In this document: piece by piece, positions 5,546 through 14,935 of the stretch
Position numbering within the stretch: the stretch's first letter is position 1
How the letters are laid out: each line of letters opens with the position of its first letter
Assembly: GCA_024405015.1 (NCBI GenBank)
Contig: JAKSPE010000004.1
Location: 1 to 64,000 of the forward strand
Source: Sphaerochaetaceae bacterium
GTDB taxonomy: Bacteria > Spirochaetota > Spirochaetia > Sphaerochaetales > Sphaerochaetaceae
DNA length: 64,000 bases
Direction: 5' to 3'
Notes under the pieces: model-generated
Seen by the model: the letters and a program-made list of their open reading frames with translations, nothing else
The model's database searches: none
Told to the model about the DNA's origin: nothing
Translations under genes and position numbers: made by a program

Positions 5546-6556
5546 TTAGATTTCGCTGACGAGAACTGGTCTGTTCTCTGCAAGAGACTTCTTACATGCA
5601 AGACCGATTCTGATGGACATGAGACCGTCCTTGAGTCCGACTGGAACCTCTGTTCCGTTGTTGACTGCTTCAACGAACTGTCTCATCTCATCCTGGTAGG
5701 ATGCCATGTATCTCTCGAGGAAGAAGTACAGAGGCTTCTCGCCTGTGACACCGTCTTCTGTTGAGATGACTGCTGTGGAAGCTGCATCGTTTGTGATCTG
5801 GACAGCACCCTTTGAACCGAAGACCTCAGCTCTCTGGTCGTAGCCGTAAGCTGCCTTTCTTGAGTTGTCGATGAGTGCGAGAGCGCCGTTGGAAAGTCTG
5901 ATGGAGACTGTTGCGCTGTCAACGTCACCAGCCTTGCCAATCTCTGGATCGATGAGACATGCACCGCGAGCGTAGACCTCTTCGATCTCTGCGCCAGAAA
6001 GGTAACGAACCATGTCGATATCGTGGATCATCATGTCAAGGAAGATACCGCCGGAGACTGCGACATACTGTGGTGCTGGTGGGTTAGGGTCACGTGAGCT
6101 GACACGGACGAACTGGACATCACCGACCTTGCCTGCGAGTGTTGCTTCGCGGATGGCCTTGAAGTTGTGGTCGAATCTGCGGTTGAAGCCGACCTGGAAG
6201 CAGAGCTTCTTTGGAGACTCGGCAAGAGCCTTCTCGACTTCTTTGATCTTTGCTGGGCTGAGGTCAACCGGCTTCTCGCAGAAGACATGCTTCTGAGCTT
6301 TGATTGCCTCGATGGAGATTGGTGCGTGTGTGTCTGTTGAAGAGCAGACGAGAACTGCATCAATCTTTGGGTTGTTGAGGATGTCATGGTAATCTGAAAC
6401 GACGACAGCGCCAGTGGATTCCATCCATTCCTTAACTTCTGGTCTGATATATGGGTCTGCGACCATTGCGACTCTTGCTCCAGGAACTCCTGAAACGATA
6501 CTTCTGGCGTGAACCTGTCCGATTCTTCCAGCTCCGATTATTCCAATCTGAACCAT
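5546..6556 (-). CDS. iolG: Inositol 2-dehydrogenase (Gfo/Idh/MocA family)
   Basis: 336-aa NAD-dependent oxidoreductase. The Rossmann motif GIIGAGRIGQVH lies at residues 4-15. The family lysine is K95 in CEKPVD, with D174 and H178 in DMMIHDID completing the K-D-H triad of inositol dehydrogenases. The expected reaction is myo-inositol to scyllo-inosose, the first step of inositol breakdown. The start at 6556 follows GGAGG; the in-frame ATG ten codons upstream would place this Shine-Dalgarno sequence inside the gene. A LacI-type operator lies 21-44 bp upstream, and iolE, iolB and iolD lie 4-7 kb away under a matching operator. The Gfo/Idh/MocA family is broad, so related cyclitols or sugars remain possible. 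Confidence 0.85.
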   Translation of the reverse strand: MVQIGIIGAGRIGQVHARSIVSGVPGARVAMVADPYIRPEVKEWMESTGAVVVSDYHDILNNPKIDAVLVCSSTDTHAPISIEAIKAQKHVFCEKPVDLSPAKIKEVEKALAESPKKLCFQVGFNRRFDHNFKAIREATLAGKVGDVQFVRVSSRDPNPPAPQYVAVSGGIFLDMMIHDIDMVRYLSGAEIEEVYARGACLIDPEIGKAGDVDSATVSIRLSNGALALIDNSRKAAYGYDQRAEVFGSKGAVQITNDAASTAVISTEDGVTGEKPLYFFLERYMASYQDEMRQFVEAVNNGTEVPVGLKDGLMSIRIGLACKKSLAENRPVLVSEI

Positions 6557-6576
6557 TTCGTCCTCCATAATCTGAA

Positions 6577-6600
6577 AGTTACGCAATCGTTTGCGTTACT
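6577..6600. promoter_or_regulatory. LacI-family-type operator between iolG and the MBL gene
   Basis: A near-palindrome: GTTACGCAA and TTGCGTTAC around TCGT (6578-6599). It has the ACGCAA...TTGCGT core with central CG typical of LacI/PurR-family sites. It lies in the intergenic region shared by two divergent genes. A related site is at 7566-7591. No lacI-type gene lies in the window. Confidence 0.65.
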
Positions 6601-6702
6601 TATATGGATATCATAATTGCAATGTATCAACAAGTCAATTTATTTGTTGATTTCCAGGCTGCAGTGAATGCTATTATGATGACAGACCAGGAGGTTTTTC
6701 CC

Positions 6703-7566
6703 ATGATGTTTCTTGGAACCGGCGCTTCAGAATCCATTCCGAATCCGCTTTGCCGATGTCCCGTCTGTACCGATGCCAGGACCATTTCCGGATACGCAAG
6801 GTGCAGGAGCATGTTTTTGCTGGATTCCCGCAATCTGATCGATTTCGGGCCGGACCTGTTTCCTGCCTGCCATAAGCTTTCTCTGGATCTGGGCGATTTG
6901 GAAAGTGTGTTCATCACCCATACGCACGGGGACCATTTCTGCCTGGAGAACATGGATGTTGTGAAGTACTCCATGACACGGGACGGCAGACCCCTGACCT
7001 TTTATCTGTCTGCAGCTGCCTATGACCTTTGCATCCATGCCATGGAAAGCTCTCCCCGTCTGCCAGGTATCCGCAACCTTGTGAAAGCGGTGAATCTTGG
7101 AAATGCCAAACTGGTGAAAGTGGTTCCTTACCAGTGGTTTGAAACATCGGGCCTGCGTGTGATGGCCGTGGAATCATCCCATACGGTAACAGCCGAGGAA
7201 CATGCCATAAACTACCTGTTTGAGAAAGAGGGGAAACGGTTTCTATATGCTTGTGACAGCGGAAGATATCTGTCACAGGCGCTAGAGGCTCTGCGGGGTG
7301 CTCAGGTCGATGCGTTGGCCATGGATTGCACCTGGGGCCTGTGCCAGAAATACGATAGCGCAAGGCATTTGAACTGTGAGGATTTCTGCCTGCAGCTAAA
7401 GCAGTTCGAGCAGTATGGGATTCTTGGTTGTAAGACACAGGTGTATGCGACGCATGTGAACCACAAACAGGGGGCAACCCATGCGCAACTGCAGCATTGG
7501 TTCGATGGGAACAGCCCGTTTCCGGTGACGGTTGCCATGGATGGAATGCGGGTCGAATTACAATAG
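6703..7566 (+). CDS. MBL-fold metal-dependent hydrolase (PhnP-like)
   Basis: 287-aa metallo-beta-lactamase-fold protein. The start region FLGTGASES and the Cys cluster CRCPVC near residues 17-22 match PhnP-type phosphodiesterases, which bind an extra zinc there. The metal motif HTHGDH lies near residue 72, with later ligands in SSHTVTAEEHA and ACDSGRY and a terminal histidine in YATHVNHKQG. PhnP opens cyclic ribose phosphates in phosphonate breakdown, but no phn genes are here. The start at 6703 follows AGGAGG at 8 nt; an in-frame ATG at 6604 lacks such a site. The gene diverges from iolG over a shared operator, so it probably acts in the same pathway, perhaps on a cyclic ester or phosphate intermediate. 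Confidence 0.8.
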   Translation: MMFLGTGASESIPNPLCRCPVCTDARTISGYARCRSMFLLDSRNLIDFGPDLFPACHKLSLDLGDLESVFITHTHGDHFCLENMDVVKYSMTRDGRPLTFYLSAAAYDLCIHAMESSPRLPGIRNLVKAVNLGNAKLVKVVPYQWFETSGLRVMAVESSHTVTAEEHAINYLFEKEGKRFLYACDSGRYLSQALEALRGAQVDALAMDCTWGLCQKYDSARHLNCEDFCLQLKQFEQYGILGCKTQVYATHVNHKQGATHAQLQHWFDGNSPFPVTVAMDGMRVELQ

Positions 7567-7669: not shown

Positions 7670-8743
7670 ATGAAGAAAGTTAGAGTCGGTGTTGCCGGAT
7701 ACGGAACAATCGGTCAGCGTTTGGCTGACGGTGTCGCAATGCAGGAAGATATGGAGTTGGTCGGAATCGCTGATCTTGCTCCAACAATCGCTCTCAAGGC
7801 TCTTAGAGAGAATGATATGATCGGAAACAACGGTGTAAAGTACAACCTTTACCTTGTTGACGGTGCAGACAAGGCCGCTTTCGAAGCAGCTGACATCCCA
7901 GTGGCAGGATCCTTTGCTGACCTTTGCCAGAATGTTGATATCATGCTCGATTCCGCTCCTGGTGGAGTTGGTGCAGCCAACAAGGCCAACTACTATGACA
8001 AGTATGGCGTCAAGGCAATCTTCCAGGGCGGTGAGAAGAATTCTGTTGCAGATGTCTTCTTCCATGGCTATGCAAACTACGAGAAGGGTGTCAACCAGAA
8101 CTACCTCAAGCTCACAAGCTGCAACACAACAGGTCTCATCCGAACTGTTGACTGTCTTGACAGAGAGATCGGAATCGAGAAGGTTGCCATCACAATCATC
8201 CGAAGAGTCGCAGACCCAGGTGATTACCACAGAGGACTGACAAACGCTCTGCAGATTGACAAGGCTCCAAGCCACCAGGCTGTTGACCTCATGACCATCA
8301 TGCCACATGTCGAGGCTACTGGTATCCTTGTCCACACACCTGTCACACACGGCCACATCATCACAGTTCTTGCCACAGCCAAGGACGGAAAGAAGATCAC
8401 ACGTGAGATGGCTCTCGAGGCATTCAGAAAGCATCCGAGAATCAGAACCGTCACAATCGACGAGGGTTTCAAGGGTAACGCAAGCCTGTTTAAGTATGCT
8501 AGAGACCTCGGCAACAGACGTGGTGATATGTATGAGATCGGTCTTTGGGAAGACAGCATCGTTGAGAGCGGAAACGACATCATGTATGCCATCAACATCC
8601 CACAGGAGAGCGTCACAATCCCAGAGACAATGGACGCCATCCGTGCTGCACTTGGCATGCAGCTCACACGTGAGGAAGGTACTGCAATGACCAACAAGTA
8701 TCTCAAGATCGGTCGTTTCAAGAGCCTTCAGAAGTTCAATTGA
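7670..8743 (+). CDS. Type II (archaeal-type) glyceraldehyde-3-phosphate dehydrogenase
   Basis: 357-aa phosphorylating aldehyde dehydrogenase of the type II GAPDH family found mainly in archaea. Rossmann motif GVAGYGTIGQR lies near residue 7. IFQGGEK is at 117-123, catalytic Cys151 in SCNTTG, the substrate-side RRVADP near 178, and a probable base His202 in PSHQ where archaeal members read PSHH. It would convert an aldehyde, phosphate and NAD(P)+ into an acyl phosphate. It is the first gene of a six-gene operon and lies 40 bp before a PGK of matching archaeal type. Its placement with inositol genes suggests oxidation of an inositol-derived aldehyde, or G3P made from inositol; the sequence does not decide. 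Confidence 0.88.
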   Translation: MKKVRVGVAGYGTIGQRLADGVAMQEDMELVGIADLAPTIALKALRENDMIGNNGVKYNLYLVDGADKAAFEAADIPVAGSFADLCQNVDIMLDSAPGGVGAANKANYYDKYGVKAIFQGGEKNSVADVFFHGYANYEKGVNQNYLKLTSCNTTGLIRTVDCLDREIGIEKVAITIIRRVADPGDYHRGLTNALQIDKAPSHQAVDLMTIMPHVEATGILVHTPVTHGHIITVLATAKDGKKITREMALEAFRKHPRIRTVTIDEGFKGNASLFKYARDLGNRRGDMYEIGLWEDSIVESGNDIMYAINIPQESVTIPETMDAIRAALGMQLTREEGTAMTNKYLKIGRFKSLQKFN

Positions 8744-8783
8744 TTGAATTTCAACCAATTCTAGAATAATCGGGAGTAACGAA

Positions 8784-10034
8784 ATGAGGTTTGGAATCAG
8801 GACACTTGACGACGTCAACGTCAAGGGAAAGACAGTTCTCTGCAGAATCGACATCAACCAGCCTGTGGATAGAGCCACAGGCAAACTCAAGAGCATCAAC
8901 CGCATTCAGGCATGTGTTCCTACTATCAAGGAGCTTTCTGAGAAGGGTGCAAAGGTTGTTCTCATGGCTCATCAGGGCAGTGACATCGAGTATAAGAACT
9001 ACTACACGACTCGCCCACATGCTGATGTTCTCACATCACTTCTGGGATTTGAGTGCAAGTGGGTTGAGGATGTCTGCGGTCCAACTGCACGAGAGGCCAT
9101 CAAGGCTCTCAAGGACGGAGAGGTCCTTCTTCTTGACAATGTCCGATTCATGGCTGAGGAACAGACCCTTTTCGAAACCAAGCTCTGTCTGACCCACGAG
9201 CAGCAGGCCAAGACCCAGGTTGTCACAAAGCTCGCTCCGCTTGGAGACCTTTACATCTGTGATGCCTTTGCCGCTGCTCACCGTGACCAGCCAACCCTTT
9301 GCGGATTTGAGCAGATCCTGCCATCCTCAATGGGTCGTCTGTTTGAGAAGGAGTACTGCACCGTCTCCTCTGTGATGGAGGAGCCTGAAAGACCATGTGT
9401 CTTCGTGCTTGGCGGCGCCAAGATTGCAGATGCCTTCCAGATGATGAAAACGGTCCTTTCCAAGGGCAGTGCCGACACGGTTCTGACCGGTGGTCTTGTG
9501 GCCAACATCTTCCTGGCATCCCAGGGATATCAGATTGGTCAGGGAAGCCTCGATTTCATCTACAAGTCCAACTATGGACAGTACATTGATGTCGCAAAGG
9601 AGCTCTATGCCCAGTTCGGCGAGAAGATCATCCTTCCGGAGGATCTTGCATGGGTGCAGGACGGACAGAGAAAGGAGGCTCTTGTGGGCCAGATCCCAGA
9701 GGAAATCGGCGCTGTGGATATCGGAAGCAAGACTGCAGATGTCTACACTTCCAAGATCCTTTCCGCAAAGACCGTATTCGTCAACGGTCCTGCTGGAGTG
9801 TTCGAGCAGGAGCCTAGCGAACTGGGAACAAAGGCAATCTGGAATGCTCTTGCTACAACAGCGGCATTCACAGTTCTCGGTGGTGGAGACAGCATTACCG
9901 CTACAGAGAAGTACAAACTTACAGATAAGATCGGCTATATCTGCACCGGAGGCGGTGCATTGATCAGATTCCTTAGCGGCGAGGAGCTTCCTGTCGTTAA
10001 GGCACTTAGACACGGTTCATTGATTGGGGAGTAA
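8784..10034 (+). CDS. Archaeal-type phosphoglycerate kinase-like protein
   Basis: 416-aa PGK-fold kinase closer to archaeal than bacterial PGKs. Substrate-site residues visible are D23, N25, R40, H63, R121 and R167. Position 66, where PGKs have the Arg of SHxGRP/HQGRP, is Ser (AHQGS), and the following loop is rewritten. Nucleotide-site motifs VLGGAK, GGGDS and TGGGA are intact. PGK moves phosphate between an acyl phosphate and ADP, so with the GAPDH gene upstream it forms an ATP-yielding pair. The lost Arg hints at an acyl phosphate other than 1,3-bisphosphoglycerate, but a neighbouring Arg (R77) might compensate. The next gene starts 5 bp downstream. Confidence 0.88.
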   Translation: MRFGIRTLDDVNVKGKTVLCRIDINQPVDRATGKLKSINRIQACVPTIKELSEKGAKVVLMAHQGSDIEYKNYYTTRPHADVLTSLLGFECKWVEDVCGPTAREAIKALKDGEVLLLDNVRFMAEEQTLFETKLCLTHEQQAKTQVVTKLAPLGDLYICDAFAAAHRDQPTLCGFEQILPSSMGRLFEKEYCTVSSVMEEPERPCVFVLGGAKIADAFQMMKTVLSKGSADTVLTGGLVANIFLASQGYQIGQGSLDFIYKSNYGQYIDVAKELYAQFGEKIILPEDLAWVQDGQRKEALVGQIPEEIGAVDIGSKTADVYTSKILSAKTVFVNGPAGVFEQEPSELGTKAIWNALATTAAFTVLGGGDSITATEKYKLTDKIGYICTGGGALIRFLSGEELPVVKALRHGSLIGE

Positions 10035-10039
10035 TCAGA

Positions 10040-10942
10040 ATGTTTGATCCAAAGAAAGTAAATCTTGGTATTGCACCTATCGGTTGGTGCAATGATGATA
10101 TGCCTGAACTCGGTGCAGAGAACACCTTCAGACAGACTGTCAGTGAAATGGCTCTTGCCGGATTCACTGGCTGTGAGATCGGAAACAAGTACCCAAAGGA
10201 CCCTAAGGAACTTAAGTGGGAACTTGATCTCAGAGGAATGAGAATCGCCAGCCGCTGGTTCAGCTCTTTCATCCTTACTCAGGATATGGAGACTGTTAAG
10301 GCTGATTTCAACAAGGAACTCGATTTCCTTGCCGCAGTCGGATGCAACAGAATCAACGTAAGCGAACAGAGCTATTCCATCCAGGGCCAGGTCGATACCC
10401 CAGTTCTGACAGGTGGTCACAAGCATGTCATGGACGATGCCGAATGGGATCGCTTCTGCAAGGGCCTCAACGAGCTCGGAAAGATCGCCGTCGAGAGAGG
10501 TTTCAAGCTTTGCTTCCATCATCACATGGGAACAGTCGTCCAGACTTCAGAGGAAACCGATCGCATGATGGCCAACACAGACCCAAGATATGTGTTCCTC
10601 TGCTATGATACAGGCCATTTCACATTCGCAGGCGAGGACCCACTTGCCATGCTCAAGAAGTATGTTGACCGCGTCGGTCATGTGCATCTCAAGGATATGC
10701 GCCTGGATGTCGTCAAGCAGGCACGTGAGAACAACTGGAGCTTCCTTACAGCTGTAAGAAACGGAGCATTCACAGTTCCTGGTGATGGTGATGTTGACTT
10801 TGACCCAGTATTCAAGGTTCTCGGCGAAGCTGGATACGAGGGCTGGCTCCTTGTTGAGGCTGAACAGGATCCTGCAAAGGCAAATCCTCTTGAGTACGCC
10901 ATCAAGGGAAGAAAGTATATCCGTGAACATGCGGGTCTCTGA
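10040..10942 (+). CDS. iolE: Inosose dehydratase (IolE, TIM-barrel)
   Basis: 300-aa TIM-barrel protein of the xylose isomerase-like family. GIAPIGWCNDDMPELG near the N terminus is a close match to IolE, which dehydrates scyllo-inosose to a trihydroxycyclohexane-1,2-dione. Metal and acid-base residues are likely in FHHHMGT (near 158), CYDTGHF (near 190), HVHLKD (near 215) and LVEAEQD near the C terminus. The length is normal for IolE. It is tightly packed, 5 bp after the kinase gene and 11 bp before iolB. Confidence 0.9.
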   Translation: MFDPKKVNLGIAPIGWCNDDMPELGAENTFRQTVSEMALAGFTGCEIGNKYPKDPKELKWELDLRGMRIASRWFSSFILTQDMETVKADFNKELDFLAAVGCNRINVSEQSYSIQGQVDTPVLTGGHKHVMDDAEWDRFCKGLNELGKIAVERGFKLCFHHHMGTVVQTSEETDRMMANTDPRYVFLCYDTGHFTFAGEDPLAMLKKYVDRVGHVHLKDMRLDVVKQARENNWSFLTAVRNGAFTVPGDGDVDFDPVFKVLGEAGYEGWLLVEAEQDPAKANPLEYAIKGRKYIREHAGL

Positions 10943-10953
10943 TCGGAGGTTTC

Positions 10954-11745
10954 ATGTACTTCAGAAAAGACGCTGAAAGAGGATACAACACCTATATCGA
11001 CACCAAGATTGACGATATGGGAACACAGATGGACATTGGCCTTCTTGTCATGGAAGAGGGCGATGTCTATACCATCGATGAAGCCGAGAAGGAGACAGCT
11101 GCTCTCCTTTTCAGTGGAGATGTCGTTTTTGAATATGCCGGAAACAAGGTTGAGGGTCACAGACCTGACTGTTTCCGCTATGAGGCATACTGTCTGCTCT
11201 CACCAAGAAAGGTCAAGATCACCATCACAGCCCTTTCTCACGCTGAGGTCTACATTCAGCAGACAGTCAATGCAAATGACTACAAACCTGTCATGTACAC
11301 ACCTGAGACTGTTCAGGTCCAGCATGCTGGTGCAAACGGAGAGCTCATGGGTTGCATGAGAAGAGAGATCAAGACTTTCTTCGACTATGACAACGCACCA
11401 TTCTCCAACATGGTTCTTGGTGAGGTTCTCAACTTCCCAGGAAAGTGGTCATCATATCCACCTCACCACCATCCACAGCCAGAGGTCTATTTCTACCGAT
11501 TTGACTATCCACAGGGCTTTGGCGTCGGATTCGCAAACGGTGAGGTCTTCAAGACCGAACATAACGGAGCTCTTATCATCACAGACGGCTTCCATTCCCA
11601 GGCTGCCGCTCCTGGCTATGCCATGTGTTACAGCTGGGGCATTCGACACCTTGACGGTGATCCATGGAAGAAAACCAGAATCGATGACAAGGAGCATTCT
11701 TGGCTTTGGAAGGCCGATGCCAACGAGCATATCTTCCAGGGTTGA
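10954..11745 (+). CDS. iolB: 5-deoxy-glucuronate isomerase
   Basis: 263-aa bicupin of the IolB family, converting 5-deoxy-D-glucuronate to 5-dehydro-2-deoxy-D-gluconate. The metal-binding signature SSYPPHHHPQPEVYFYRF lies near residues 168-185, and a second ligand set in GFHSQAAAPGYAMCY is near 212-226. The start follows GGAGG. In the standard pathway the next step is IolC phosphorylation, but no iolC-type kinase of the PfkB family is in this window. Confidence 0.93.
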   Translation: MYFRKDAERGYNTYIDTKIDDMGTQMDIGLLVMEEGDVYTIDEAEKETAALLFSGDVVFEYAGNKVEGHRPDCFRYEAYCLLSPRKVKITITALSHAEVYIQQTVNANDYKPVMYTPETVQVQHAGANGELMGCMRREIKTFFDYDNAPFSNMVLGEVLNFPGKWSSYPPHHHPQPEVYFYRFDYPQGFGVGFANGEVFKTEHNGALIITDGFHSQAAAPGYAMCYSWGIRHLDGDPWKKTRIDDKEHSWLWKADANEHIFQG

Positions 11746-11771
11746 AAACTGACAGGATAGGGGGAAAGAAT

Positions 11772-13694
11772 ATGGAGACAGTAAGACTTACAATGGCTCA
11801 GGCACTGGTCCGATTTCTCGAGAACCAGTACATCTCATATGATGGAAAGGAGCATCCTTTTGTAGAGGGTGTCATCATGCTTCCAGGACACGGAAATGTC
11901 CTTGGTGTTGGACAGGCTCTTGCTCAGGAAGCACACCGCATGCAGGTATGGCAGGGAAAGAATGAGCAGGGTATGGCACATACCGCCATGGCTTTCGCAA
12001 AGCAGAACAAGAGAAAGAAGATCATTGCCGTCACATCATCTGTAGGTCCTGGTGCCGCAAACATGGTGACTGCAGCTGCTACAGCAACCGCAAACAACAT
12101 CCCTATCCTGATTCTTCCAGGTGATGTCTATGCCTGCCGCCAGCCGGACCCTGTTCTTCAGCAGATCGAACATACCTACGACCTCTCTATCTCAACAAAC
12201 GATGCCTTCAAGGCCGTTTGCCGCTACTGGGATAGAGTCGCACGTCCAGAGCAGCTGATGAGCGCAATGATCAGTGCCATGAGAACTCTCACAGACCCAG
12301 CCAATACCGGTGCCGTCTGTATCGCAATCCCTCAGGATGTCGAGGGTGAGGCTTATGACTATCCAGTCACCTTCTTCCAGAAGCGTGTCCACAAGCTCGC
12401 CAGAAGAACTCCAGACGAAGAGGTCATCGCAGAGGCAGCAACTGTCATCAAGGCAGCAAAGAAGCCTCTTCTCATCTGTGGTGGCGGTGTTCGCTACAGT
12501 GAGGCACACGAGCAGTTCAGAGAGTTTGCTGAGGCAACAGGCATTCCTTTCGGCGAGACACAGGCCGGTAAGAGCGCCATCGTCTATGATCACTACCTGA
12601 ACCTTGGCGGTATCGGAACAACCGGTTGTTCTGCCGCCAACGAGATCGCAAGAGAAGCCGATGTCATCATTGGTGTCGGAACAAGATACACAGACTTCAC
12701 AACCTCTTCCAAGTGGCTGTTCAAGGAGACTGCAAAGTTCGTCAACATCAACGTCTCCGAGTTCCAGGCTCTGAAGCTTGAGGCCGTTCCTGTCGTCGCA
12801 GATGCCAAGAAGGCTCTTCCAATCCTGCTCAAGGCACTGGATGGTTACAAGGCTCCATACAAGGATGAGGTCAAGGTCGCTCGTGAGAAGTGGGCTAAGG
12901 AGCTTGAAAGACTCCGCGGTATCCAGTTCTCTGATGACTATATTCCAGAGGTCAACGATGCCAATGCAGAGAGCGCAAGACGCTTTGCAAAGGATCTTGA
13001 TGCAACACTGACACAGACAACTGTCCTTGGAGCCATCAACATGCTCATCGACAAGGATGACGTTGCCATCGGATCTGCCGGTTCCCTTCCTGGTGATATG
13101 CAGAGAATGTGGTGTGCACGTGGTGTTGATACTTATAATATGGAATATGGTTATTCCTGTATGGGTTATGAGATCTCCGGTGCTCTTGGCGTCAAGTATG
13201 CCATCGGCGATCGTGATGTCTACTCCATGTGTGGAGACGGAAGCTTCGTCATGCTTCACTCCGAGCTGCTTACTGCCGTACAGGAGCGCAAGAAGATCGT
13301 TGTCTGTCTGTTCAACAACGCAAGCTTCGGTTGTATCAACAACCTGCAGGTCGGCCATGGTAACAATACCCTTTGTACAGAGCTTCGCTATCGTGGAGAG
13401 GATGGAAAGCATTCCGGTCAGTTCATGCCGGTTGACTTTGCCAAGATTGCCGAAGGCTATGGCTGTAAGGCTTTCACCGTCAAGACAATGGCAGACCTTG
13501 AGGATGCTCTCAAGAAGACCAAGGAAATCAAGGATGTCCCTGTTCTTCTCGACATCAGAGTTCTCCCAAAGTCCATGACAGAGGGTTACAGCTCATGGTG
13601 GAGATGCGGTGACGTTCAGGTTTCCGAGAATCCTAGAAACCTCAAGGCTTACCAGGATCATCTTGACCACGTCAAGGACGCAAGAAAGTATTGA
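11772..13694 (+). CDS. iolD: 3D-(3,5/4)-trihydroxycyclohexane-1,2-dione hydrolase
   Basis: 640-aa thiamine-diphosphate enzyme that opens the cyclohexanedione ring to 5-deoxy-glucuronate. The N-terminal Pyr domain has the conserved Glu in NEQGMAH near residue 61. The C-terminal PP domain has GDGSF...NNASFG, the ThDP/Mg2+ motif. A central domain links them. The start at 11772 (METVRLTMAQ) is preceded by GGGGGAAAG; a longer in-frame start at 11700 would overlap iolB. Length agrees with IolD. The stop is 2 bp before the next ATG. Confidence 0.95.
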   Translation: METVRLTMAQALVRFLENQYISYDGKEHPFVEGVIMLPGHGNVLGVGQALAQEAHRMQVWQGKNEQGMAHTAMAFAKQNKRKKIIAVTSSVGPGAANMVTAAATATANNIPILILPGDVYACRQPDPVLQQIEHTYDLSISTNDAFKAVCRYWDRVARPEQLMSAMISAMRTLTDPANTGAVCIAIPQDVEGEAYDYPVTFFQKRVHKLARRTPDEEVIAEAATVIKAAKKPLLICGGGVRYSEAHEQFREFAEATGIPFGETQAGKSAIVYDHYLNLGGIGTTGCSAANEIAREADVIIGVGTRYTDFTTSSKWLFKETAKFVNINVSEFQALKLEAVPVVADAKKALPILLKALDGYKAPYKDEVKVAREKWAKELERLRGIQFSDDYIPEVNDANAESARRFAKDLDATLTQTTVLGAINMLIDKDDVAIGSAGSLPGDMQRMWCARGVDTYNMEYGYSCMGYEISGALGVKYAIGDRDVYSMCGDGSFVMLHSELLTAVQERKKIVVCLFNNASFGCINNLQVGHGNNTLCTELRYRGEDGKHSGQFMPVDFAKIAEGYGCKAFTVKTMADLEDALKKTKEIKDVPVLLDIRVLPKSMTEGYSSWWRCGDVQVSENPRNLKAYQDHLDHVKDARKY

Positions 13695-13696
13695 TT

Positions 13697-14935
13697 ATGA
13701 GAATTGAGATACCATATAAGATGGACTCATTGACTGTAGAGGTGGCACCAGAGCATTTTGGTGCCATTCTTGAACTCAATGAGCCAGAATGCAAATGTGA
13801 GAAGAAGAGCGCCGTTCAGATTGTAAGCGATGCCGTCGCTGGTACACTTGAGGATTTCCTTGCACTGCCAGGAGATGTGCTTGTGATTGTGAACGATGGT
13901 ACCCGTCCGACACCGACAAGGTTCGTGTTGGAGGCCATTGGCGCACAGCTTGAAAAGGCACAGGCTTCCTTCATTGTCGCAACCGGTGCACACAGAGCTC
14001 CAAATCGTGAGGAGTATGACTTCATCTTCGGCTCCTGGTACGACACTTTCAAAGAACGCGTCTATGCACACGATGCCCGTGACATGGAAAGCATGAAGTA
14101 CTACGGCAGCACAAAGCGTGGAACGCAGCTGTATCTGAACAAAATCGTTGCCCAGGCTCAGAAGGTTATTGTCATCGGTTCTGTCGAGCCTCATTACTTT
14201 GCCGGTTACACCGGTGGAAGAAAGGGTTTCTTGCCAGGCACTGCCGCCTATATCTCCATTGAGCAGAACCATAAGCTGGCCCTGTCCGATGATGCACATA
14301 CCTTGGCATTGGAGGGAAACCCGGTGCATGAGGATATGATGGAGGCTGTTGAGCTGATCAAGGCTCCTGTCTATTCCATCATGACGGTTCTGGATAAGGA
14401 CCAGGAGATCGACAGCGTCTGTGCCGGCAGCCTCAAGGACTCCTTTGAGAATGCCATTGCCGCCGCAAATGCCATATTCACTGTGCCACTGGCTGAGAAG
14501 GCTGATGTGGTTGTGACCGTAGCACGTTATCCGATGGACATTGACCTTTACCAGTCCCAGAAGGCCATCGACAATGCCTCCTTGGCCCTTAAGGATGGTG
14601 GAACCATGATTCTTGTCTCCTCCTGCCGTGACGGTATCGGTGGAGATGCCTTCTACAAACTGCTGTCTAGTGCTGATACACCGGATGAGGTTATGAGAAA
14701 GATCGATGCCGGCTACAAGCTTGGTTACCACAAGGCTGCCAAGATGGTGAATGTGTTCCGCCGTGCTACCGTCCAGGGTTACACAGAACTGGATGATGAC
14801 ATGCTCAGAAACATCTTCATCACACCGGTCCATGATCTGCAGAAGGCCCTTGATGATGCCATTGCCAAGTATGGCAAGGATTGCAAGGTTGTATTCATGC
14901 CAGACGGCTCTGTCACGGTTCCTATGGTGAAATGA
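13697..14935 (+). CDS. LarA-family nickel-pincer 2-hydroxyacid racemase/epimerase
   Basis: 412-aa LarA-like protein. Every key residue of lactate racemase has a counterpart: NDGTRPT at 66-72 (substrate Arg), H99 in GAHR, H166 in EPHYFAG, K176 in GGRKGF (the lysine that tethers the nickel-pincer cofactor) and H192 in EQNHK (nickel ligand). The protein should therefore carry the nickel-pincer cofactor and move a hydride on an alpha-hydroxy acid. Substrate may be lactate, malate or a sugar acid. The larB, larC and larE cofactor genes are not here. A TTG at 13691 overlapping the iolD stop is an alternative start. It ends the operon. Confidence 0.85.
   Translation: MRIEIPYKMDSLTVEVAPEHFGAILELNEPECKCEKKSAVQIVSDAVAGTLEDFLALPGDVLVIVNDGTRPTPTRFVLEAIGAQLEKAQASFIVATGAHRAPNREEYDFIFGSWYDTFKERVYAHDARDMESMKYYGSTKRGTQLYLNKIVAQAQKVIVIGSVEPHYFAGYTGGRKGFLPGTAAYISIEQNHKLALSDDAHTLALEGNPVHEDMMEAVELIKAPVYSIMTVLDKDQEIDSVCAGSLKDSFENAIAAANAIFTVPLAEKADVVVTVARYPMDIDLYQSQKAIDNASLALKDGGTMILVSSCRDGIGGDAFYKLLSSADTPDEVMRKIDAGYKLGYHKAAKMVNVFRRATVQGYTELDDDMLRNIFITPVHDLQKALDDAIAKYGKDCKVVFMPDGSVTVPMVK

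Follow-up and report, generated by a model that had tools for sequence, protein, structure and literature searches.

The window that we analysed, a stretch of 64,000 nucleotides from contig JAKSPE010000004.1 of a Sphaerochaetaceae bacterium, carries inositol (iol) genes together with genes for an archaeal-type phosphoglycerate kinase (PGK) paralogue, termed PGK2 here, a type II GAPDH (GAPDH2) and a LarA-family racemase:

5546..6586, minus strand: IolG, inositol 2-dehydrogenase (TIGR04380, 446 bits, over the cut-off of 355)
7670..8743, plus strand: type II (archaeal) GAPDH (GAPDH2), proposed phosphorylating D-malate-semialdehyde dehydrogenase (TIGR01546, 277.6 bits; NF003251, 391 bits)
8784..10034, plus strand: PGK2, archaeal-type phosphoglycerate kinase paralogue, proposed D-malyl-1-phosphate:ADP phosphotransferase (open reading frame, Pfam, alignment, tree, model)
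8979..9029, plus strand: Ser66 codon and rewritten loop of PGK2, residues 66-82 SDIEYKNYYTTRPHADV, replacing the canonical GRP...
10040..10942, plus strand: IolE, inosose dehydratase (TIGR04379, 409 bits, over the cut-off of 290)
10954..11745, plus strand: IolB-like, 5-deoxyglucuronate isomerase of the KduI/IolB family (TIGR04378, 93.6 bits, below the cut-off of 205)
11772..13694, plus strand: IolD, trihydroxycyclohexanedione acylhydrolase (TIGR04377, 890 bits, over the cut-off of 715)
13697..14935, plus strand: LarA-family nickel-pincer racemase of the malate-racemase (Mar2-like) type (NF052593, 359.5 bits, below the cut-off of 500)

The plus-strand genes run in the order GAPDH2, PGK2, IolE, IolB, IolD, LarA, and iolG is divergent from them. 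Only in the window does a PhnP-like gene of metallo-beta-lactamase fold (6604-7566) separate iolG from GAPDH2; given its absence at that spot in congeners, we dropped it as a candidate pathway member.

The PGK2 reading frame (8784-10034) encodes a full-length protein of 416 amino acids that matched Pfam PF00162 over residues 8-400 at 385 bits (cut-off 27), placing it in the PGK fold family. An AlphaFold model of PGK2 (mean pLDDT 90.6) confirmed the PGK fold and, when searched with Foldseek, returned the PGK of P. horikoshii (PDB 2CUN) as its top match (TM-score 0.85-0.88; 41% identity over the match), in line with the comparison to an archaeal PGK that the first-pass annotation had proposed; 2CUN was also the closest solved relative by sequence (302 bits). 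The two proteins share the fold, the HQG motif and an archaeal-type insertion before residue 150. The same annotation had matched D23, N25, R40, H63, R121 and R167 to the 3-phosphoglycerate site of PGKs, and all of these residues were found at those positions. It had also noted that the arginine of the HxGR motif is replaced and the following loop rewritten, which we likewise see: position 66, directly after His-Gln-Gly and equivalent to human Arg65, is a Ser encoded by AGT (8979-8981), and the altered loop spans residues 66-82. Its placement of the loss in the acyl-phosphate site, in turn, did not hold, as Arg65 acts together with Arg122 and Arg170 to hold the 3-phosphate of 3-phosphoglycerate instead; in pig PGK these three arginines contact the 3-phosphate oxygens, His62 contacts the bridging oxygen, and Asp23 and Asn25 contact the 2-hydroxyl (PMC7729029).

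Scanning contigs of bacterial and archaeal genomes for relatives of PGK2 revealed about 40 sequences at 74-88% identity, mostly from rumen or gut Clostridia and rumen Spirochaetales, as well as a Diplocloster modestus PGK2 at 61% and archaeal PGKs at 43-44% identity; a plasmid search returned no PGK at 60% identity or more, only PGKs below 60%. A second PGK2 clade (clade B; 42-46% identity) lies inside the window's own family. The first-pass annotation had raised the possibility that Ser66 is shared among PGKs of iol clusters, and in our alignment all 41 clade-A homologues had Ser at residue 66 and all 15 clade-B homologues had Asp, while the residue was Arg in the archaeal relatives L073 and L074 and in the canonical PGKs of the window's family, and Lys in one Lachnospiraceae PGK. 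Since Ser66 is common to 41 sequences, a sequencing or annotation error behind it was ruled out. The 3-phosphate clamp formed by Arg65, Arg122 and Arg170 is accordingly incomplete in 56/56 PGK2s, in which the Arg65 position is Ser66 or Asp66 and the other two arginines (R121 and R167, equivalent to Arg122 and Arg170) are always present; D23, N25 and R40 (equivalent to Arg38) are invariant and H63 is retained. Both clades further share a signature of N39, Y70, N72 (one exception), A217 and R395; canonical and archaeal rows have Glu in place of R395. R77, which had been considered as a possible spatial substitute for the missing arginine, varies (K, R, A or T in clade A; A, S or E in clade B), indicating that it is not a required stand-in. 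In a maximum-likelihood tree, clades A and B formed one branch (97/96) beside the archaeal PGKs, among whose rows the program flags long branches, and the canonical bacterial PGKs stood apart from this branch (100/100).

Loss of Arg65 alone is no proof of a new substrate, since P. horikoshii PGK reads HQGKPYSEDY, with Lys at this position, and a yeast R65Q PGK mutant exists as a crystal structure (PDB 1QPG). Arg65 of human PGK is also involved in domain closure (PMC7729029), so that its loss could have further effects. PGK2 differs from 2CUN beyond the substitution of Ser or Asp for Arg or Lys after HQG, namely in a loop with conserved Y70 and N72, in the N39 and R395 signatures, in occurring in addition to a canonical PGK, and in its linkage to iol genes. 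Judged from sequence, the acyl-phosphate end of the PGK2 pocket looks unaltered and the distal-phosphate end changed; retention of the 2-hydroxyl readers with loss of one of three distal-phosphate ligands suggests that the substrate is a 2-hydroxyacyl phosphate with a tail other than a phosphate ester. Based on the residue invariance, the phylogeny and the gene context, we consider it highly probable that PGK2 acts on a changed substrate within an iol cluster, and the first-pass annotation was right in this respect. It is likely, with less assurance, that PGK2 has an archaeal origin and has ceased to function in glycolysis.

GAPDH2 is a partner of the same ancestry as PGK2. The window copy scored over the TIGR01546 cut-off (277.6 against 232.9 bits) and retains the catalytic Cys motif SCNTTG, like the type II archaeal GAPDHs (PDB 2CZC, 1CF2, 2YYY and 1B7G). 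It differs from these in its predicted substrate, D-malate semialdehyde, and in two substitutions found in both clades: the archaeal PSHH is PSHQ, and Asp (Asp35) replaces the archaeal Lys that closes the second strand. We infer a preference for NAD from the second of these changes. LarE makes the nickel-pincer (NPN) cofactor of LarA. A LarE over the cut-off was detected in only 2 of the 33 genomes, all with or near the GAPDH2-PGK2-LarA trio, although the cluster LarAs keep the cofactor residues; the cofactor might be salvaged, LarE might have escaped recognition, or LarA might carry out another chemistry. The LarA of Clostridia and Diplocloster scored 572 bits against NF052593 (cut-off 500), and spirochaete copies fell below it (window: 359.5 bits; L106: 389.7 bits). 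Clostridial LarA matched Mar2 (LarAH6, PDB 6D6Z) at 414 bits, and the NPN and substrate residues of Mar2 (K181, H197, Q293, K351) are kept in all 52 cluster LarAs except for one gapped row at K351. Conservation of Q293 and K351, the residues proposed to confer malate specificity on Mar2 (PMC7583248), covers the LarAs of Clostridia, the window's genus and its family. Cluster LarA resembles Mar2 in these residues and, for the clostridial copies, in passing the curated cut-off, and is unlike it in the scores of the spirochaete copies and in that most hosts are without detectable larE. Malate racemases accept tartrate too (PMC11770544).

GAPDH2 adjoins PGK2 in 54/57 loci and LarA lies near PGK2 in 55/57, the exceptions in both cases being loci cut by a contig end, and the set of three is almost always found among iolG, iolE, iolB and iolD. 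Clostridial loci run GAPDH2, PGK2, split transketolase N and C, LarA, malic enzyme, IolE, IolB, IolD, with some loci lacking some of these genes; malic enzyme follows LarA in many of them. Two genes that encode about 280 and 320 residues and separate clostridial PGK2 from LarA turned out to be the two halves of the transketolase that our proposed chemistry (see below) requires. A split transketolase is present in 32/57 loci; elsewhere in the window's family it lies directly after IolE or ahead of GAPDH2. Within the cluster of the window's own genus we found no transketolase, so that the proposed step would depend there on a split transketolase from another locus. Separately, the transketolase halves are fused into one open reading frame of 613-614 amino acids at L146:4830-6674 and L148:5044-6885 but separate in their congener L147, in another gene neighbourhood within that genus. 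Among 139 genomes of the family, 20 held both IolE (over the cut-off) and PGK2, 1 and 2 held one of the two without the other, and 116 held neither (p = 7e-21, a value that overstates independence as the genomes are related).

We made two further observations. In Diplocloster modestus (L069:2796-15585), GAPDH2, PGK2, LarA, malic enzyme and split transketolase occur with no iol genes alongside, adjoining a sugar ABC transporter, a glycyl-radical dehydratase with its activase, and an aldehyde dehydrogenase, which suggests that another sugar feeds the same module. At L038:6238-7806 and other loci, a 522-amino-acid protein encoded beside IolG has an iPGM metalloenzyme domain ahead of an iPGM_N domain, as a phosphoglycerate mutase would after circular permutation; being confined to part of the clostridial loci, we did not take this gene as a sign of a glycolytic role.

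The window cluster itself is of mixed character. GAPDH2, PGK2, IolE, IolB and IolD of the window's genus are of the clostridial type (IolE is 82-90% identical to its clostridial counterparts and about 53-62% identical to those of the family), whereas LarA follows the family (45-59% identity, against 31-37% to Clostridia). The cluster (7670-14935) is therefore probably a laterally acquired mosaic with a racemase from another source, and taking this gene from a separate source speaks for the need for that racemase.

The classical myo-inositol pathway of Bacillus subtilis comprises IolG-E-D-B-C-J-A. Genomes with PGK2 share with it the steps of IolG, IolE, IolD and IolB to 2-deoxy-5-keto-D-gluconate (DKG) and differ thereafter: among 33 genomes, IolC (DKG kinase) over the cut-off and the DUF2090 aldolase, the one aldolase type that the search covered, were each found in none, and IolA (malonate-semialdehyde dehydrogenase) over the cut-off was found in one, Diplocloster, and is missing in 32/33. 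In place of these enzymes, their loci carry GAPDH2, PGK2, malate racemase, transketolase and malic enzyme. The hosts generally have separate glycolytic enzymes as well: a canonical PGK is also present in most congeners and family members that hold PGK2, type I GAPDH (GAPDH-I) over the cut-off in 28/33 genomes, and two PGKs in 9/9 Clostridia examined. In the window's own genome, which is 85% complete, we found neither a canonical PGK nor a GAPDH-I, both of which its near relatives have.

We propose the following route. IolG, IolE, IolD and IolB would convert myo-inositol to DKG, and the reactions from DKG onward are those that we infer. DKG corresponds to D-xylulose-5-phosphate with CH2-COO- replacing CH2-OPO3 and the same 3S,4R ketose stereochemistry; seen from its CH2OH end it is D-threo, like xylulose-5-phosphate and fructose-6-phosphate. 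Transketolase could thus transfer the C5-C6 ketol unit of DKG to glyceraldehyde-3-phosphate, yielding xylulose-5-phosphate and (R)-3-hydroxy-4-oxobutanoate, that is, D-malate semialdehyde, the carboxylate analogue of D-glyceraldehyde-3-phosphate. GAPDH2 would oxidise and phosphorylate this aldehyde to D-malyl-1-phosphate, and PGK2 would form ATP by transferring the acyl phosphate from it to ADP, with release of D-malate. LarA would then act as a malate racemase to produce L-malate, and malic enzyme would convert the latter to pyruvate. On this route Arg65, which grips the 3-phosphate, would have been lost from PGK2 because the substrate ends in a carboxylate, with Asp23 and Asn25 retained for its 2-hydroxyl; and D-malate being the wrong isomer for ordinary malic enzyme would account for a malate racemase and malic enzyme in one cluster. 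That D-malyl phosphate is the substrate of PGK2 in a transketolase-type inositol pathway is in our judgement probable, and we lean, a little less firmly, towards the whole being an undescribed, kinase-free inositol pathway in which transketolase acts on DKG and a GAPDH/PGK pair makes ATP from D-malyl-1-phosphate. In the open-access literature we found no account of inositol breakdown via malate racemase, malate semialdehyde or transketolase; PGK2 appears to be a variant within a known enzyme kind that works in an undescribed pathway. A precedent is the sulfoquinovose transketolase (sulfo-TK) pathway, in which SqwGH, a split transketolase, acts on the non-phosphorylated sulfosugar SF (PMC11659671). 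Shared with our proposed route are a split transketolase, a non-phosphorylated acidic ketose and glyceraldehyde-3-phosphate as acceptor, with xylulose-5-phosphate as product. The leftover aldehyde is isomerised and then cleaved again in the sulfo-TK pathway, whereas in our proposal the donor is a carboxylate, DKG, and the leftover aldehyde would be oxidised with formation of ATP.

Three other readings were weighed against this one. PGK2 and GAPDH2 might be normal enzymes of glycolysis, archaeal in origin, that were gained along with the iol cluster to handle triose phosphate from the classical pathway, with Ser66 merely tolerated. The full PGK fold with its close match to 2CUN, the retention of most catalytic residues and the lack of this Arg in the P. 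horikoshii enzyme are compatible with such a role, as is the result that no other PGK or GAPDH-I was found in the incomplete genome of this one organism, where PGK2 might conceivably be glycolytic. That PGK2 is the sole glycolytic PGK of the organism is nonetheless improbable, given that most PGK2-bearing congeners hold both PGKs and that the genome is 85% complete. A glycolytic role would moreover have to coexist with a separate canonical GAPDH-I/PGK pair in most relatives and with the absence of IolC and the DUF2090 aldolase and near absence of IolA, as well as with invariant Ser/Asp66 and R395, and it would leave strict linkage to malate racemase, transketolase and malic enzyme without a reason; we regard it as unlikely.

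The missing IolA bears on a different possibility, in which DKG or its phosphate undergoes aldol cleavage and the pair gains energy from the resulting malonate semialdehyde by way of malonyl phosphate. In its favour, the classical breakdown of inositol yields malonate semialdehyde as second product, and the enzyme that normally consumes it, IolA, is missing in 32/33 genomes. However, this aldehyde has no 2-hydroxyl, yet the residues that bind one (D23 and N25; PMC7729029) are invariant, which disfavours it as a substrate. Neither IolC nor the DUF2090 aldolase, the aldolase type covered by the search, was found in the 33 genomes, and racemase, transketolase and malic enzyme would be left unexplained, making this very improbable. 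Alternatively, PGK2 might serve another 2-hydroxyacyl phosphate, for example one derived from a tetrose, glyceraldehyde or a tartronate-type aldehyde, and LarA would then act on that acid rather than on malate. Our substrate assignment is read from sequence alone, malate racemases also use tartrate (PMC11770544), and the module lies outside iol clusters in Diplocloster, all of which would fit. Conversely, the malic enzyme adjoining LarA, the Mar2 type of that LarA and the stereochemical fit of DKG as a transketolase donor point to D-malate, and we consider another acid quite unlikely.

PGK is among the most conserved metabolic enzymes and, to our knowledge, is usually taken to use 3-phosphoglycerate alone. 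If our proposal is true, PGK2 would be a member of the PGK family that is specific for an acid without a phosphate group, and its reaction would constitute a new substrate-level phosphorylation. A re-cut substrate pocket that has become fixed in two PGK clades would then demonstrate that GAPDH and PGK can be redirected together to a new aldehyde. Automated annotation would label these GAPDH2 and PGK2 genes as glycolytic. Inositol is a major phytate product in plant diets; the proposed pathway predicts malate-derived fermentation products and would explain the use of inositol by gut and rumen anaerobes that have iolG, iolE, iolD and iolB without iolC or iolA.
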